From the NCBI RefSeq assembly GCF_010748935.1, contig NZ_CP048796.1, forward strand, positions 1,429,001 to 1,493,000: 64,000 nt of DNA. Reading direction: 5' to 3'. Below the pieces are notes generated by a model. That model did not search any database. It worked only from the letters and a program-made list of their open reading frames with translations, and was not told where the DNA came from. Source of the stretch: Providencia vermicola (GTDB lineage: Bacteria > Pseudomonadota > Gammaproteobacteria > Enterobacterales > Enterobacteriaceae). Each line of letters starts with the position of its first letter. The stretch's first letter is position 1. Shown here in pieces: positions 4,449 to 55,487 of the stretch. Made by a program: the position numbers and the translations under genes.

Positions 4449-5081
4449 ATGTTTAAGAAAACTTTGTGTGCATTGTCGTTAATTTCTGTTTCATGTGCAG
4501 CTTTATCTGCTCCAGTTGCTAATTTAAAAGTAACAGGTTCAATAACACCACCGACATGTACTATTAATAATCAAAATGAAATTGATGTGGAATATAAATT
4601 TGATGTTGCACCACAGATGTTCCCTGCTACTGGTGCTTTAGTTTTACCTCCTGAATCTAAAAGAATTGAAATAGTCTGTGATGCAACAACCTATTTAAGT
4701 TTTGATGCTACAGATAATCGTAGTGATAGCGTTATGACGGTAGGAAATGGTAACTTTGGTTTAGGTAAATATGGTACTGATAATGATAAAAACATTGGTT
4801 TTTATACTATCGCTATGAAAAATGCAACGACCAAAGCAAATGCTGATGCAACAGAAAAGAAAGTAGGTGTGTTAGTTGGAACAATCTATAATGCAACTGA
4901 GCTTTCAGTAGTGAAAAATAGAAAAGCATCTTGGGGATTAGCCTCACAGGTACCTGCAGCTGCACAAATTTTTGCAGCTGACTTTGAAGTGAAACCAACA
5001 TTAAGTGCAGAACTAAAGAACTATTCTGGTGATGTATCTTTAGATGGTCATACAACATTGTCATTTGGTTTTTCTATTTAA
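4449..5081 (+). CDS. DUF1120-type fimbrial subunit 1
   Basis: This 210-residue protein has a signal peptide (cleavage near ALSAPVANL). It shows two fimbrial hallmarks: a cysteine pair (PPTC at the start of the mature protein, VCDATT further in) and a C-terminal alternating hydrophobic strand ending in phenylalanine-rich FGFSI, used for chaperone and donor-strand contacts. It strongly resembles the next gene, suggesting tandem duplication. DUF1120 subunits characterise beta-class chaperone-usher fimbriae such as E. coli yhcADEF. As first gene with a good SD (AAAGG) it is a candidate major subunit, by inference. Confidence 0.83.
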   Translation: MFKKTLCALSLISVSCAALSAPVANLKVTGSITPPTCTINNQNEIDVEYKFDVAPQMFPATGALVLPPESKRIEIVCDATTYLSFDATDNRSDSVMTVGNGNFGLGKYGTDNDKNIGFYTIAMKNATTKANADATEKKVGVLVGTIYNATELSVVKNRKASWGLASQVPAAAQIFAADFEVKPTLSAELKNYSGDVSLDGHTTLSFGFSI

Positions 5082-5143
5082 TTTTACATAGATAAAGGTG
5101 GGCCTTGTGGGGCCTACCTTACTGAATAAGGTTACGGATAAAG

Positions 5144-5782
5144 ATGAACAATTCAGTGAAATATGTAGCGTTATTACCATTATTTTTTTTAAGTGCAAGC
5201 TATGCTGATGTTGATGCAAATTTAAAAATTATGGGAACAGTAAAACCACCAACGTGTAGTATTAATAATGGAGATGAAAGTGATATTGAATATAAATTTA
5301 CGGTATCTCCACAAATGTTTCCTACGATAGATAATTTAAATCTAGCACCAGAAACTAAACGTATTGAAATAATTTGTGATGCTACAACAGTTTTAAATTT
5401 TATGGCGACAGATAATCGTAGCGATAGTGTTTTAATTAAAGGTACTCGTAATTTATTTGGTTTAGGTAAGTATGGTACTGATAATAGCAAAAACATTGGT
5501 TATTATTCTATTAAGATGAAAAATGCGACAACGAAAGCAAATAGCGATGCTGAGGAAACTAAAGTCGGGATTGCATCTGGTTATAGTTTTAATGATTCGC
5601 AATTAGATGTCTATGTTGGAAAAAAAGTATTTTGGGCATCTAAATTTGCACAATTCGCTGCTGCGCAAATTTTTGCAGCTGATTTTGAAGTAATACCAGT
5701 ATTAAATGGTGCTTTAAAGGATTTTTCTGGTGATGTGTCTTTAGATGGCCATGCCACTTTAGCGTTTAGTTTTTCTATTTAA
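5144..5782 (+). CDS. DUF1120-type fimbrial subunit 2
   Basis: The 212-residue exported protein is a close paralogue of the preceding one. Shared stretches include PPTCSINN, CDATT, ATDNRSDSV, FGLGKYGTDN and MKNATTKAN. The signal peptide ends near SASYADVDA, and the C-terminus LAFSFSI fits a chaperone-usher subunit. It lies 62 bases downstream of subunit 1 in the same operon. Duplicated subunits often diverge under antigenic selection. Confidence 0.83.
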   Translation: MNNSVKYVALLPLFFLSASYADVDANLKIMGTVKPPTCSINNGDESDIEYKFTVSPQMFPTIDNLNLAPETKRIEIICDATTVLNFMATDNRSDSVLIKGTRNLFGLGKYGTDNSKNIGYYSIKMKNATTKANSDAEETKVGIASGYSFNDSQLDVYVGKKVFWASKFAQFAAAQIFAADFEVIPVLNGALKDFSGDVSLDGHATLAFSFSI

Positions 5783-5847
5783 TCTAATGCTGAAGTTAAT
5801 TATGTATTCTATCTATTATGTAAGTGACTGAGGTTATTGATTTATTC

Positions 5848-6555
5848 ATGAATAAGTTGACAAAATGCATTACACTATTTCCATTATTAGTTTCAGGCAT
5901 GAGTTATGGTGATATTAATGCAAACTTAAAAGTTAATGGCGATATTAAGCCACCAACATGTTTAGTTAATGGGATGGAAAAAACAGATATTATTTATGAT
6001 ATGGGAAAATTATCTCTTGATGTCATACCGGTATCTGATATGTATATATTCCCTAGCGAATCATTAGTTAAAAACACGGTAACAGTGACATGTGACGCAA
6101 CAACCTATTTAACGTTTATGGCGAATGATACATACCAAAGCTTAAACTTACCGGCTACTCCGTTAAAGTCATCATACGGTCATATCTATTTCCGTTTTAA
6201 TGTGGGGGAGCCTCAAGCCCTAGGTGGAGTGTATTTTTTACTTGAGGATCTAGAAGTAGATAACAAGGCTGTTTATGCTCGTCGCCTTTATAGCAATATA
6301 AAGCCCACTTCTGGGATTAGAGACAATACACTGACCAAAGATGAATATTATGGCTGGGCTAATGTAGCAAAGGAAACTGTTGATACATCTGAATTTCAAG
6401 AATCACTCGTTCCTGGGAAAGTCTTTTCCGTATCATTTAAACAAGGTGGTGCGTTTATTAATTCAAGAACTGACTTATCTAAAGCCAATATTAATCTAAA
6501 TGATGGCATAAATTATAACGCTGAAGCTGTGGTTACATTTAACTTTGGCATCTAA
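5848..6555 (+). CDS. DUF1120-type fimbrial subunit 3
   Basis: I use the ATG at 5848 (235 residues), because it leads straight into a normal signal peptide (MNKLTKCITLFPLLVSGMSYG); an in-frame GTG at 5824 would add eight polar residues. The mature protein keeps KPPTC, VTCDATTYL and the terminal VTFNFGI strand, but the middle differs from subunits 1 and 2. It is therefore probably a minor or adaptor subunit. Confidence 0.78.
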   Translation: MNKLTKCITLFPLLVSGMSYGDINANLKVNGDIKPPTCLVNGMEKTDIIYDMGKLSLDVIPVSDMYIFPSESLVKNTVTVTCDATTYLTFMANDTYQSLNLPATPLKSSYGHIYFRFNVGEPQALGGVYFLLEDLEVDNKAVYARRLYSNIKPTSGIRDNTLTKDEYYGWANVAKETVDTSEFQESLVPGKVFSVSFKQGGAFINSRTDLSKANINLNDGINYNAEAVVTFNFGI

Positions 6556-6580
6556 TTATAAATAAACTAGGCACGTATCT

Positions 6581-7213
6581 ATGCGTTTAATTTCATTAAA
6601 AGTAACGTTGTTTTTTATGTGCTTTTTGAGTGTTTTTGTAAAAGCCCAGGGAATATATGCCCAAAATATTCCGGCTGAAACTGTGATACCACCAAGTTGT
6701 GACATTATTCCACCGAATGATGGAAATTATCAATTTTCACAGCTTCATGCTAGTTATTTTAAATTAAATGAGTTAACAGAAATTCCAGAAGTAAAAAAAA
6801 CATGGCAGGTTTTATGTAATACACCGGTAAGTCTGTTTCTTAAAATAGTCGATAATCGCCATGATTCTTCACGTATGGATAATGAAAGCTATTTTGGCTT
6901 AGGTCATGTTAATAGGCAGGGTAAAATAGGTAATTATCAATTAACACTAAGTCATGCCAGCGTTGATAATGAAAGAGCTGATATGTTCTTAAGTGAAAAT
7001 ATGTCTGCCTCTAAAGCATCTTCTATGACCGTGAAAAAAAATAAAACTTATGGCTGGCTGCTGGGAGAAAATACGCCAGCTTCAGGAAAAGTGTTTTCTG
7101 TAGACATTACCGTTTCAGCTAAACTGAATTCGTTAAAAGAAACGGATGGGCCTATTGTTAATGGCGCTGAACTGGATGGTAATGCTGAGTTGATTTTTTC
7201 ATTTGGTATTTAA
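6581..7213 (+). CDS. DUF1120-type fimbrial subunit 4 (possible tip protein)
   Basis: This 210-residue protein has a signal peptide ending near VKAQG and the most divergent sequence of the four subunits. It keeps the cysteine pair (PPSCDI and VLCNT), an RHDSS/FGLGH block echoing subunits 1 and 2, and a C-terminal LIFSFGI strand. It directly precedes the usher gene. A minor or tip role is inferred only from divergence and position. Confidence 0.74.
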   Translation: MRLISLKVTLFFMCFLSVFVKAQGIYAQNIPAETVIPPSCDIIPPNDGNYQFSQLHASYFKLNELTEIPEVKKTWQVLCNTPVSLFLKIVDNRHDSSRMDNESYFGLGHVNRQGKIGNYQLTLSHASVDNERADMFLSENMSASKASSMTVKKNKTYGWLLGENTPASGKVFSVDITVSAKLNSLKETDGPIVNGAELDGNAELIFSFGI

Positions 7214-46839: not shown

Positions 46840-47541
46840 CTAGATTATATTTATAACACTATCAAAGTTATTTATTATTGATTTACTAAACATTATATTT
46901 TGTTGAAACTCATATTTTGCTTGTTTTATGTTATTTGTTATTGATGATGGTAGTCTATCGTAATGGATATCATTTTGCCTTATTGATAAGATAAGACTCT
47001 CAATGTTATTTATCTGGCGCTCGTACTGTTTTATTCCAAATAGCTTTTCGATATATCCATTGTTTAATATCCCATTTAATCTATGTATTACCACCGATGT
47101 AGTATATAACGGGTCATCTTCTTTAAGGAAAATATATATTGCTATGGTGTTATTGTTTTGAAATATGGTTAATTTTTCATATTCAATTTTCATTAAAAGT
47201 TCAAATGCGGATATATTATCTTCGAGTAGTTTTTTTAAGAAAATAGTTTCTTGCTTTATAAAATGAATTGATTTTTTTGCGTTAAGTTCATTTCTTTTTA
47301 TTTCTATGGTTTCATTATGCTTCTTACTTCCGTGATATGTTAGAATAGTCACTAAAATACTAATAGATGAAATTATAGTAAATATTGTTGATGTGTAGCT
47401 TAACATTATGCTTTCACCTTTTGTATCTATAGTGAAGTAACCAATTGTTATGATTGCTACTACTAGAAACCAAGCGACAGCACCAACAATGCTAATAATA
47501 AAATCTTTCATTCCGTCGAAATCATCAATATTCCGTTTCAT
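46840..47541 (-). CDS. Two-segment membrane protein, likely prophage cargo
   Basis: The 233-residue protein has two hydrophobic segments (residues about 14-36 and 47-69) and a long AT-coded helical cytoplasmic domain. I recognise no family. Codon use is more AT-rich than the flanking recombination genes. A dedicated terminator and a 120-base upstream gap suggest an independent unit (a moron) expressed from the prophage. Superinfection exclusion or abortive infection is a reasonable guess only. Confidence 0.65.
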   Translation of the reverse strand: MKRNIDDFDGMKDFIISIVGAVAWFLVVAIITIGYFTIDTKGESIMLSYTSTIFTIISSISILVTILTYHGSKKHNETIEIKRNELNAKKSIHFIKQETIFLKKLLEDNISAFELLMKIEYEKLTIFQNNNTIAIYIFLKEDDPLYTTSVVIHRLNGILNNGYIEKLFGIKQYERQINNIESLILSIRQNDIHYDRLPSSITNNIKQAKYEFQQNIMFSKSIINNFDSVINII

Positions 47542-52849: not shown

Positions 52850-53296
52850 ATGAGTCGAGAAGAAGTTATAGATAGAATTATTTATTCTCATTACCTTGAG
52901 CAATTGTATTCAACCGCTTTAAGCAGGCTGGATAAATTAATCTCAATATTCATTTTCATTTTCGGCTCGGCCATTGTTTTACAGGCCAATCCTTATATTT
53001 TTGGTGTGTTGGTTGTAATTTTGACAGGCATACAATCAACATATCAATTTGGTAAAAAGTCTGGAGAATCAAAAAGAAAGTCATTTGATTACCAGAAATT
53101 ATTTACTATTAAATCCAAATATGATGACGCTGATTTAATGGATCGTATGCTTGAACTAGAGGCTACTGATTCAACTCCTTGGTCGTCGCTCATTCCGATA
53201 GCAACACTTAAAGCTCAAATAGCAATGGGTGTTGAAGATAGATATCTAGAAAAGCTTAATTGGAAAACTAAGTTACTTAGAGTTCTTAGTGGCTAG
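52850..53296 (+). CDS. Two-segment membrane protein in the sieB position (SLATT-like)
   Basis: The 148-residue protein has two adjacent membrane helices (residues about 28-45 and 49-66) and a C-terminal soluble helical domain. This layout resembles SLATT-type effectors and superinfection-exclusion proteins. In lambda and P22, sieB is likewise carried opposite to the pL operon next to the immunity region. Sequence homology to SieB was not seen; the parallel is positional and architectural. Confidence 0.68.
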   Translation: MSREEVIDRIIYSHYLEQLYSTALSRLDKLISIFIFIFGSAIVLQANPYIFGVLVVILTGIQSTYQFGKKSGESKRKSFDYQKLFTIKSKYDDADLMDRMLELEATDSTPWSSLIPIATLKAQIAMGVEDRYLEKLNWKTKLLRVLSG

Positions 53297-53658: not shown

Positions 53659-53738
53659 TACCTAGAGGTAATTTAAAAGTAAATACCCAAAGGTAAACAA
53701 TTTGACGTGAAAAGTTTACCTAATTGATTTTTCAGGTA
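53659..53738. promoter_or_regulatory. Left operator region (OL)
   Basis: TACCTAGAGGTA at 53659-53670 and TACCCAAAGGTA at 53684-53695 are near-palindromes matching the right operators. Their 25-base centre spacing equals that of OR sites 2 and 3. A looser pair of half-sites, TACCT at 53717 and AGGTA at 53734, lies beyond. They would control the leftward early promoter. Confidence 0.82.
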
Positions 53739-53799
53739 ATTTATTTTCAAAAATTATTTATCTTGCGAGAAAAATCACACTGGCGGGGAATTTCGGGCA

Positions 53800-53825
53800 C
53801 AAAAAAGCCCTCGCGGGGAGGGCTT
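53800..53825 (-). terminator. Terminator of the repressor/rex-position operon
   Basis: On the minus strand AGCCCTC and GAGGGCT form a GC-rich stem followed by TTTTTT (plus A run at 53801-53806). It lies 17 bases beyond the stop of the last gene of the unit and keeps lysogenic transcription out of the early operon. Confidence 0.88.
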
Positions 53826-53841
53826 CTAAAGATGTCATTAG

Positions 53842-54330
53842 TTAATCTTCATTTTTTTGCGTTGAGGTTCGCTCTAGCTGATCTGACTTTCCTTTGTATA
53901 CTCCAGCAAGGTATCCAGCTAGCACCCCACCACCTATTTTAGCTAATTCAATCGCATATTGAGCATTACCAGTATACATTGAAACTATAACAACAAGTAC
54001 AACGCACACTGCAACCAAGCATTTAAAGTAAACCTTTTTAGTTTCTAGCCCGCTAAAAAAACGAGTTTGTGTTTCTCTGTCTTCCTTTTGAGCATCGATA
54101 GACTTAAGAGCTATCTCTCTATTGCTTTCAATCTCTTGTCGTCTTATCTCTAGCTCTTGCGTTTTAAAATCAATCTCTTTAGATTTTAATTCAATCTCTT
54201 TAGATTGAACCTCAACAAACTTCTCGATAGCTGCTATTGGATTTGGCTTATCTTTTTTGGTTTGCTGCTGGTTTTTATCTGGCTCATCCGCTACTGTTGA
54301 TGGCAGGTTTGGGGATTCATTTGCACTCAT
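53842..54330 (-). CDS. Coiled-coil two-segment membrane protein in the rexB position
   Basis: The 162-residue protein has a polar N-terminus, a strongly heptad-like coiled coil (residues 35-90, rich in KEIEL/KEIDF/RRQEI units) and two C-terminal hydrophobic segments (about 101-121 and 126-146). It overlaps the upstream gene by four bases. Two genes on the same strand as and downstream of the repressor is the lambda rexA-rexB arrangement; RexB is also a membrane protein. No sequence similarity to RexB is claimed. Confidence 0.7.
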   Translation of the reverse strand: MSANESPNLPSTVADEPDKNQQQTKKDKPNPIAAIEKFVEVQSKEIELKSKEIDFKTQELEIRRQEIESNREIALKSIDAQKEDRETQTRFFSGLETKKVYFKCLVAVCVVLVVIVSMYTGNAQYAIELAKIGGGVLAGYLAGVYKGKSDQLERTSTQKNED

Positions 54331-54542
54331 ATATTAACTTCACAAAGTACTGGTATTCTATAAGTAACTTTAAATGAACCAAAGTTGTCATCACCAATCT
54401 TCGGCGCTAAATACTCAACTCTTTCAATATTATCAGTATGATTCTGAACTATTTCTAGATATTCAGTTGGAGATACCTTTTTAGCTTTAACTGGTTCAAA
54501 TACTTTTTTGTAAAAATCTTTTCTTTTTTGATTGATTCTCAT
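54327..54542 (-). CDS. Small basic protein in the rexA position
   Basis: The 71-residue protein MRINQKRKDFYKKVFEPVKAKK... has a perfect AGGAGG five bases before the ATG at 54542, which decides against a longer in-frame ORF of 86 codons. The basic N-terminus and beta-rich C-terminus (FGSFKVTYRIPVLCEVNI) give no family. Translationally coupled to the coiled-coil membrane protein; probably lysogenically expressed. Confidence 0.66.
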   Translation of the reverse strand: MRINQKRKDFYKKVFEPVKAKKVSPTEYLEIVQNHTDNIERVEYLAPKIGDDNFGSFKVTYRIPVLCEVNI

Positions 54543-54646
54543 ATGACCTCCTAAAGGTAACCCTAAAGTCTCAGGTAGCACTTCCATATATTGAACCTAT
54601 AAAACAAAGGGGCTAAAAATCTATCACTAAAAAGCTGCTAATTCAA

Positions 54647-54685
54647 TTTAAACTAGATTGATAAGAGAATCTAGTCAAGTTTAAA
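54647..54685. repeat. Inverted repeat between repressor and rex-position genes
   Basis: TTTAAACTAGATT at 54647-54659 pairs with AATCTAG and TTTAAA at 54668-54685, interrupted by a five-base bulge. On the minus strand it lies just upstream of TTGAAT-N17-TAGATT-like promoter elements. It could be a weak repressor terminator, an mRNA-stability hairpin or an operator for a separate cargo promoter. Confidence 0.5.
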
Positions 54686-54721
54686 TATTACACACCCTAA
54701 AACGTGTCGTCAGGCCACTGG

Positions 54722-55414
54722 CTAACCGTGATATTTGTATTTGATTGATTGGCTAACTAGCACTTTGGCGTGAATAAACATACCGTCAATATTGTTTTCT
54801 TCCAGATACCAAGTTTCATACTTAGGATTATCAGAAATCACAGCAAGGCGCTTGTATTGCATTTGAAGGCGTTTTATATAAAGCTGGTTATTCAGGATAA
54901 ATACATAAATCCCATCACCATCAAAGTGATTCACGGTCATATCAACAAATATTTGATCCCGTGGCTCAAATGTCTCTGCCATCGAATCACCGCGAACAGT
55001 GATCATCTTGATTGTGTGAGCTGGTCTACCACCAAATAAACGCTTGGCTTCTTCGTCTGAATATTCAATTGCCGTTATTGTTTCTATAAACTCATCAAGT
55101 ACGACAACACCAGCCCCTGCACTAGCCTCAACATCAAGAACTTCAACCTTATATGATCTGGATGGCTGCGGAATTTCTGATTCAACAATACCGTCCATCC
55201 ACCCAGCAGGCAGCCCTAAAGCATCCTGAATAGCTAAAACCATCTTGTCACCTATTCGCTTATATCCAGATTTGCTAGGCGGGTAGAGCATTCTGGATAC
55301 ATAGGATTTGTCTTTACCAATGGCGCGTGCAAATTCCTCTTGCGTCTCATAACGAGCAACAAGCTCAGCCAGTTTTTGGCGTCTTTTTTCAAATAATTCA
55401 GTTTCTGCGTTCAT
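54722..55414 (-). CDS. CI-like prophage repressor with S24 autocleavage domain
   Basis: The 230-residue repressor has an N-terminal HTH (ARYETQEEFARAIGKDKSYVSRMLYP) and a LexA/CI-type C-terminal domain: probable cleavage at Ala99-Gly100 (ASAG), catalytic Ser144 in RGDSMAETFEP and Lys181 in LYIKRL. ATG at 55414 is preferred; a TTG at 55432 would add six residues. It is divergent from the Cro-like gene, with three operators between. RecA-dependent cleavage implies SOS induction. Confidence 0.93.
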   Translation of the reverse strand: MNAETELFEKRRQKLAELVARYETQEEFARAIGKDKSYVSRMLYPPSKSGYKRIGDKMVLAIQDALGLPAGWMDGIVESEIPQPSRSYKVEVLDVEASAGAGVVVLDEFIETITAIEYSDEEAKRLFGGRPAHTIKMITVRGDSMAETFEPRDQIFVDMTVNHFDGDGIYVFILNNQLYIKRLQMQYKRLAVISDNPKYETWYLEENNIDGMFIHAKVLVSQSIKYKYHG

Positions 55415-55435: not shown

Positions 55436-55487
55436 TACCTGCTGGTAAATTGCCTGTAGGTATTGATATTTAATTTACCTACGGGTA
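55436..55487. promoter_or_regulatory. Right operator region (OR1-OR3)
   Basis: Three near-palindromic 12-mers lie between the divergent repressor and Cro genes: TACCTGCTGGTA at 55436, TGCCTGTAGGTA at 55451 and TACCTACGGGTA at 55476. Start-to-start spacings are 15 and 25 bases. The first lies against the repressor 5' end, so it probably governs the repressor's own promoter, and the others the rightward promoter. An AGGTA half-site remains at 55504. Confidence 0.88.

Follow-up and report, generated by a model that had tools for sequence, protein, structure and literature searches.

Within the 64-kb stretch of DNA analysed here (the window), which belongs to a genome of 4.43 Mb, two small genes, designated A and B, lie on one strand between a gene for a CI-like repressor and an intrinsic terminator. 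The prophage extends past the window, with frames resembling terminase, portal and tail proteins and a 1,575-aa host-specificity protein, as read by eye from the translations. The features of the region are as follows.

54722–55414, (−) strand: CI-like S24 repressor; the ATG start was picked by eye, the mechanical ORF starting from 55432 with TTG
54543–54720, (−) strand: leader from the cI stop to A, conserved in loci L019 and L020
54547–54552, (−) strand: AGGAGG ribosome binding site of A, four bases before its ATG
54327–54542, (−) strand: gene A, 71 aa, basic (pI 9.1), phrog_2711, predicted beta-alpha-beta-beta fold
53842–54330, (−) strand: gene B, 162 aa, with a low-confidence N-terminus, a long charged helix and a predicted membrane hairpin, phrog_2720
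53890–53928, (−) strand: glycine zipper GxxxGxxxGxxxG, B codons 135–147, in the second membrane helix
53805–53825, (−) strand: intrinsic terminator stem-loop, 16 nt past B, with a T-rich tail at 53797–53804
53774–54720, (−) strand: exchangeable cassette block, delimited by blastn against L019 and L020
53659–53670, unstranded: operator-like site TACCNNNNGGTA, OL side, from the pattern count
53684–53695, unstranded: operator-like site TACCNNNNGGTA, OL side, from the pattern count
55436–55447, unstranded: operator-like site TACCNNNNGGTA, OR side, from the pattern count
55476–55487, unstranded: operator-like site TACCNNNNGGTA, OR side, from the pattern count

This inventory bears out most of what the preliminary description had read in the DNA: two genes 3' of a CI-like repressor and on its strand (the repressor matches the Peptidase_S24 domain with an E-value of 8.6e-19), the first encoding a 71-residue basic protein behind a perfect AGGAGG, the second overlapping it by four bases (the ATG of B and the stop of A share ATGA), and a strong terminator after the pair. 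The hairpin of the latter was found by a dedicated search; the stock terminator scan did not list it. Both genes are more than chance reading frames: in the comparison of the window with L020, A has a dN/dS of 0.24 and B one of 0.07, and relatives of both are present in 19 other loci.

The position of the pair relative to the operators was assessed in two ways. Four copies of the sequence TACCNNNNGGTA are present in the 64 kb, where 0.44 would be expected, and none of 100 shuffles reached this number; the sites at 55436 and 55476 lie between cI and a divergent cro-like gene, and those at 53659 and 53684 lie beyond the terminator. They are probably OR and OL of the S24 repressor. With two such sites before cI and two past the terminator, A and B therefore fall between cI and OL, in the slot of rexA and rexB in phage lambda, and the order cI–A–B–terminator–OL of the window matches cI–rexA–rexB–OL. 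The lambda genes named here are those which we take to be cI, rexA and rexB by their position in the lambda table, consistent with the PADLOC matches of the lambda proteins.

In addition, the OR regions of seven contigs (the window, L019, L020, L006, L023, L024 and L025) were matched to two stretches, one from cI to A and one past B, and the best 14-base match was scored against the highest value in 30 shuffles. In the stretch from cI to A it never exceeded the shuffles (0/7), while after B it did so in five contigs, namely L019 (14/14), L020 (13), L023 and L024 (14 each, the two being near-identical) and L025 (13). For the window the best match after B was 12, not above the shuffles, and the placement of its OL thus rests on the pattern count. 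No OR-like site was seen after B in L006, a contig which stops 327 nt past B and so is not scorable for OL. Since the repressors of L019 and L020 are 85% identical, the five contigs represent three operator types, which together with the window makes four operator types in this slot. The idea that the OL of the window recurs upstream of A in L006 and L023 was given up, as the OR sites of these two are different and the site in question has five central bases instead of four. The arrangement that defines RexAB by position, two genes 3' of cI, before OL and on the cI strand, is present, with operators inferred from sequence. The rexA/rexB position ascribed to the pair beforehand holds for the window (by the pattern count) and for five more contigs with three other operator types, but it is not general: judging from translations and annotation, five other contexts are early-region-like and three are chromosomal.

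When the immunity region was compared with ten loci by blastn, positions 53795–54712 (918 nt) proved 97.6% identical to L019, and positions 53774–54720 87.2% identical to L020. The shared block starts no more than 10 bases from the cI stop of the window and ends just past the terminator, and comprises the leader, A, B and the terminator, about 0.9 kb in all. It is near-identical in the window and L019 although the repressors of the two have no significant similarity (E-value 0.17); therefore, the block can move without the repressor. A 113-aa frame separates the repressor from the block in L019, and a 25-nt piece resembling the start of the block is repeated at the repressor stop, i.e., on both sides of this frame. 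Prophages with unrelated or distant repressors have in common a short sequence at the cI stop (window 54696–54720; L019 7250–7274; L006 4317–4345), and it is possible that this repeated sequence is a recombination joint for cassette exchange.

The terminator is a regular companion of the pair: one is found within 60 nt past B in 14 of 16 prophage copies, compared to 11 of 165 other frame ends, the latter taken from mechanically called frames of at least 100 aa in twelve of the loci. The 16 copies include the near-duplicates L023/L024, L025/L026 and L050/L056, and leave out the three chromosomal copies and L036. The two copies with no terminator within 60 nt of B are L022 and L018; a separate hairpin search saw none after B in two of the chromosomal copies. 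In Moraxella phage Mcat13 a consensus promoter, TTGACA-N16-TATAAT, matching at 12/12 positions, lies 46 nt before A and is the sole one in 9 kb, against 0.01 expected; L050 has a 10/12 match, sites of this kind there being no more numerous than in shuffles. For the window, the promoter scan yielded no convincing promoter of A and B (5 sites found, 6.7 expected), the folding of the leader was no better than that of shuffles (z −0.10), and a 9-bp hairpin in it is absent from L020. A and B are likely to be co-transcribed with cI in the window. Both the discrete transferable block and the terminator of its own, together with the consensus promoter in Mcat13, liken the cassette to phage "morons", from which the window copy differs in that no good promoter was seen for it.

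Ahead of A, the loci L006, L023, L022 and L021 have in common a block TTGnC...GGTAAACTT, which may be a regulated promoter. This candidate promoter contains an inverted repeat in L006, L023 and L022 and an imperfect one in L021; no such repeat was seen in the window. A search of 58 loci for the sequence TACCN5GGTAAACTT detected it in 12 (5 distinct records), always immediately before A, and it is a possible operator. The inverted repeats TACCN5GGTAAACTT are located at:

L006, 4429–4446
L023, 7682–7699
L022, 7715–7732
L036, 11695–11712

In profile searches A matched phrog_2711 (E-value 1e-27) and B matched phrog_2720 (6.2e-50), both PHROGs without assigned function; the copies in Mcat13 and genome G1236 match the same two families, and the chromosomal A copy of L035 did not reach an E-value of 0.1 against phrog_2711. 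Literature searches by the PHROG family names 2711 and 2720 and by the E. coli protein accessions of the pair returned no paper. A lies directly upstream of B in all 20 testable loci, 17 of them clear phage copies and three remote chromosomal ones; the set consists of the window, twelve IMG/VR contigs, Mcat13, a MAG (L018), E. coli AH19B041, G1236 and three chromosomal genomes, and two of its members, L050 and L056, look like one and the same prophage. Co-occurrence, proposed beforehand as a check, is thus upheld, and the profile searches revealed no housekeeping or structural phage family above the cut-off for either protein. Among the 12 copies listed for the junction between the genes, eight have the 4-nt ATGA overlap, in three the figure is 0–1 nt, and in L018 the genes are 12 nt apart.

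The distribution of the pair is sparse and patchy. Counting the genome of the window in each case, the genomes that carry it number 1 of 24 at the level of the genus, 2 of 198 for the family (with the A profile), 2 of 369 for the class, and 1 of 299 and 1 of 398 for the phylum; it was also found in 1 of 5,426 E. coli genomes at the DNA level and 1 of 50,697 phage records, and B was not found in 72,556 plasmid records. In the order, 4 of 325 genomes reached an E-value of 1e-3, of which G1173 (L052) is spurious, a transporter permease matched by hydrophobicity and rejected, and G1206 (L051) is incomplete, its B-like end lying at a contig edge, and was left out. Searches of viral contigs with B of Mcat13 and of L035, and of phages with B of L035, found no relatives.

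The chromosomal copies were related to the phage ones with profiles built from phage sequences only, as an earlier profile test had contained the chromosomal copies and was circular. With the phage-only A profile the three chromosomal A copies rank 1–3 of 240 frames (E-values 0.00046, 0.0021 and 0.0064), and a profile–profile comparison of chromosomal with phage A gave 92% probability and an E-value of 6.5e-7. The phage-only B profile finds two chromosomal B copies (9.1e-7 and 9.7e-6), and the two halves of the frameshifted B in G905 score 0.14 and 0.98. By these comparisons, the relation of A in the three chromosomal copies is remote.

The neighbouring genes in other loci were identified mostly by reading translations. 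The pair is directly behind a repressor in the window, L020, L006, L023 and L024, and with one frame between in L019 and L025; the pair of L025 is also present in L026. In L058, A and B lie behind an S24 repressor and the candidate defence pair PDC-M53A/B (PADLOC E-values 8.1e-12 and 2.7e-30), located at 5472–6985 upstream of A, so that accessory pairs are stacked there. In L057 they lie about 1.9 kb past a pair of genes for 295-aa and 157-aa proteins (4586–5915), which comes immediately behind a repressor-like gene; the 157-aa protein weakly matches the PADLOC RexB model (2.4e-4), and the 295-aa protein is identical in Haemophilus phage Aaphi23. The L057 proteins have no significant BLASTP match to lambda RexA or RexB, and the pair is possibly an uncatalogued RexAB-type system. 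Early-region-like contexts were found in L021, L022, L036 (the counterpart of L022 in E. coli), Mcat13, L018 and L050/L056. The Mcat13 record leaves the corresponding region (L017 5828–6441; KR093637 31451–32064) unannotated, with A, B and larger frames open there. Outside phages, the order holA–proA–A–B–tyrS was found in three genera of a different gammaproteobacterial family (3 of 60 genomes), and no phage genes were seen near these proA–tyrS copies; in one of them, G905 (L043 6144–6498), B is frameshifted and A is intact at the same site as in the other two genera.

Two further genes of the window could be mentioned. A (+)-strand gene at 52850–53296, opposing the leftward early operon and preceded by a short proline-rich frame, encodes a 148-aa membrane protein (phrog_6315, E-value 7.9e-27; weakly SLATT_4, 0.0081) and resembles another inserted accessory pair. 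A (−)-strand gene at 46840–47541, between the integrase and an SSB-like gene, encodes a 233-aa protein with N-terminal hydrophobic helices and no clear family (phrog_11626, 0.0072).

The AlphaFold model of A has a beta-alpha-beta-beta fold (pLDDT 76, pTM 0.55), and that of B (mean pLDDT 71.8, pTM 0.31) consists of a helix at residues 31–120, a turn at 121–122 and a helix at 123–161. The coiled coil and two membrane helices reported for B at the outset hold in part: the model has a long charged helix, and the first membrane helix is strongly hydrophobic (Kyte–Doolittle 2.95 over 17 residues), but the second, glycine-rich, is moderate (1.26), and the coiled coil is a putative one, read from a heptad listing. 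All of 13 B sequences (12 distinct) have the motif S/A/G-x3-G-x3-G-x3-G a single time, within the second helix, and the membrane hairpin with the zipper was found in all 12 distinct B homologues examined. An alignment of 12 B sequences (11 distinct) has just seven invariant residues, M1, A74, K82, Q88, F92, G139 and G143. Glycine zippers are known to pack helices in oligomers. Positive residues flank both ends of the B hairpin, which by the positive-inside rule suggests that both ends are cytosolic. B could form a pore, which is not assured, since its second helix is just moderately hydrophobic.

Neither protein had an above-cut-off match in Pfam or NCBIfam or a convincing one in PADLOC (for A, the NCBIfam and PADLOC scans used the window protein). 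Matches of B to Vesivirus VP2, DUF5518, BSMAP, Piezo and others in Pfam and NCBIfam, with E-values of 0.0016 or worse and below the cut-off wherever one is shown, were rejected as coiled-coil or hydrophobic noise, and so were the PADLOC matches to Cas3d (0.013), PDC-M09A (0.0012) and CARF_TM (0.0088), the last two coming from one member each. Among solved structures, a sequence search found none for B at an E-value of 1 or less and at best 0.18 for A; a fold search of A against PDB gave at best 0.24, with a VIA Z of at most 3.6, no assignment and no clear DNA-binding counterpart. Among viral models, A resembles the Siphoviridae ctJ3t72 protein A0A8S5QMZ5 (E-value 1.8e-3, TM 0.69/0.77), and the best match of B had an E-value of 6.1.

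Like lambda rexA–rexB, the cassette consists of two genes on the cI strand in the cI–OL interval, the second encoding a membrane protein. The PADLOC RexA and RexB models, which recover the lambda proteins as a positive control, miss A and B. A gives a BLASTP E-value of 1.7 and an hhalign probability of 0.1% against lambda RexA, and B gives no BLASTP alignment and 0.3% against lambda RexB. Homology is thus rejected by all three methods, in line with the initial impression that the proteins look unrelated, and by sequence A–B falls outside the RexAB family. The proteins also differ in build, A having 71 aa against 279 aa in lambda RexA, and B having one strong and one moderate candidate membrane helix plus a long charged helix, whereas RexB-type proteins are four-pass (PMC7542560); furthermore, unlike lambda rex, the cassette is also found outside the cI–OL slot. 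A 2026 paper counts only five described RexAB-like systems and covers prophage pairs of a cytosolic and a membrane protein, tested in defence, from P. putida P1, mycobacteriophages Sbash and Butters and Gordonia phage CarolAnn, the P. putida pair lying downstream of a CI-like repressor; there, RexB-type proteins, once activated by RexA, damage the membrane, and for RexAB of P. putida toxicity of the membrane protein is reported upon over-production of its partner (PMC12894663). A–B is likened to these pairs by layout, as they are described, its own role in defence being predicted.

Judged from the genomic comparisons, A–B is a conserved pair under purifying selection that moves as a block, occupies the cI–OL slot under several operator types and usually carries a terminator of its own. 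Owing to its position, linkage, mobility and neighbours, we tentatively favour, as the leading but not assured reading, a self-contained transferable prophage module in which A controls B and which would protect the lysogen from other phages, acting like RexAB without kinship to it. The sensor and effector roles which the preliminary description gave the pair are likewise presumed in this reading. The genes would be transcribed in the lysogen with cI and/or from their own promoter; B would oligomerise in the inner membrane via the glycine zipper, the charged helix lying on the cytoplasmic side; A, being small, basic and cytosolic, would keep B silent or open it upon sensing a superinfecting phage; and B would then depolarise or permeabilise the membrane, halting growth before phage release. 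Several points count against phage exclusion: A and B match no defence family, several copies lie in early-region-like contexts rather than a lysogeny-only slot, three more are chromosomal, the second helix of B is of moderate hydrophobicity, the L057 proteins lack a significant BLASTP match to the lambda Rex proteins, and the window has no convincing promoter for the pair.

It is less probable, and on balance doubtful, that the pair is a toxin–antitoxin system, with B a membrane-active toxin and A its antitoxin and autoregulator, serving maintenance of the prophage or locus and possibly phage defence. The small overlapping genes, as in type II systems, with the small basic one first, would fit this, as would the patchy distribution including plain chromosomal sites, the inverted repeat in the candidate promoters of L006, L023 and L022 (imperfect in L021) and the recurrent TACCN5GGTAAACTT upstream of A. 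The broken copy in G905 agrees with loss of a toxin ahead of its antitoxin, and also with plain decay. Against this reading, no known toxin or antitoxin family was matched above the cut-off in Pfam, NCBIfam or PADLOC, the predicted fold of A lacks a clear DNA-binding counterpart, and B was not found in the 72,556 plasmid records. Superinfection exclusion at the stage of entry seems somewhat more unlikely. SieA and Imm are membrane proteins that block entry of phage DNA, and B could be of this kind with A as helper or regulator, being small, located in the inner membrane and probably produced by the lysogen, with positive residues in its sequence on both sides of the hairpin; however, the linkage to A in all testable loci argues that A is needed, and nothing links B to entry. 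That A and B have no role in exclusion and are ordinary genes of the prophage or of host fitness, acting in lysogeny regulation, membrane stress or morphology, is the least probable reading, for which speak the unknown function of both families and the vertical-looking chromosomal site in three genera, and against which speak the rarity among E. coli genomes and the placement, which is beside repressors unrelated to each other and, in places, behind other pairs that are candidates for defence.

Returning to exclusion of other phages, a broader proposal is advanced with greater reserve: A–B could represent a new, non-homologous Rex-like immune class, a tiny cytosolic gate with a glycine-zipper membrane oligomer, carried as a mobile cassette of about 0.9 kb, repeatedly found in the cI–OL slot of prophages that differ in repressor and operators, and having remote chromosomal relatives outside phages. 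If the pair is instead a toxin–antitoxin system, it would add a toxin that acts in the membrane by a glycine zipper and has an unusual partner. If this small pair, of about 0.7 kb of coding sequence, does exclude phages, the cI–OL slot would be a general home of unrelated two-gene immune modules, and such modules could be found by locating operators, not by homology.
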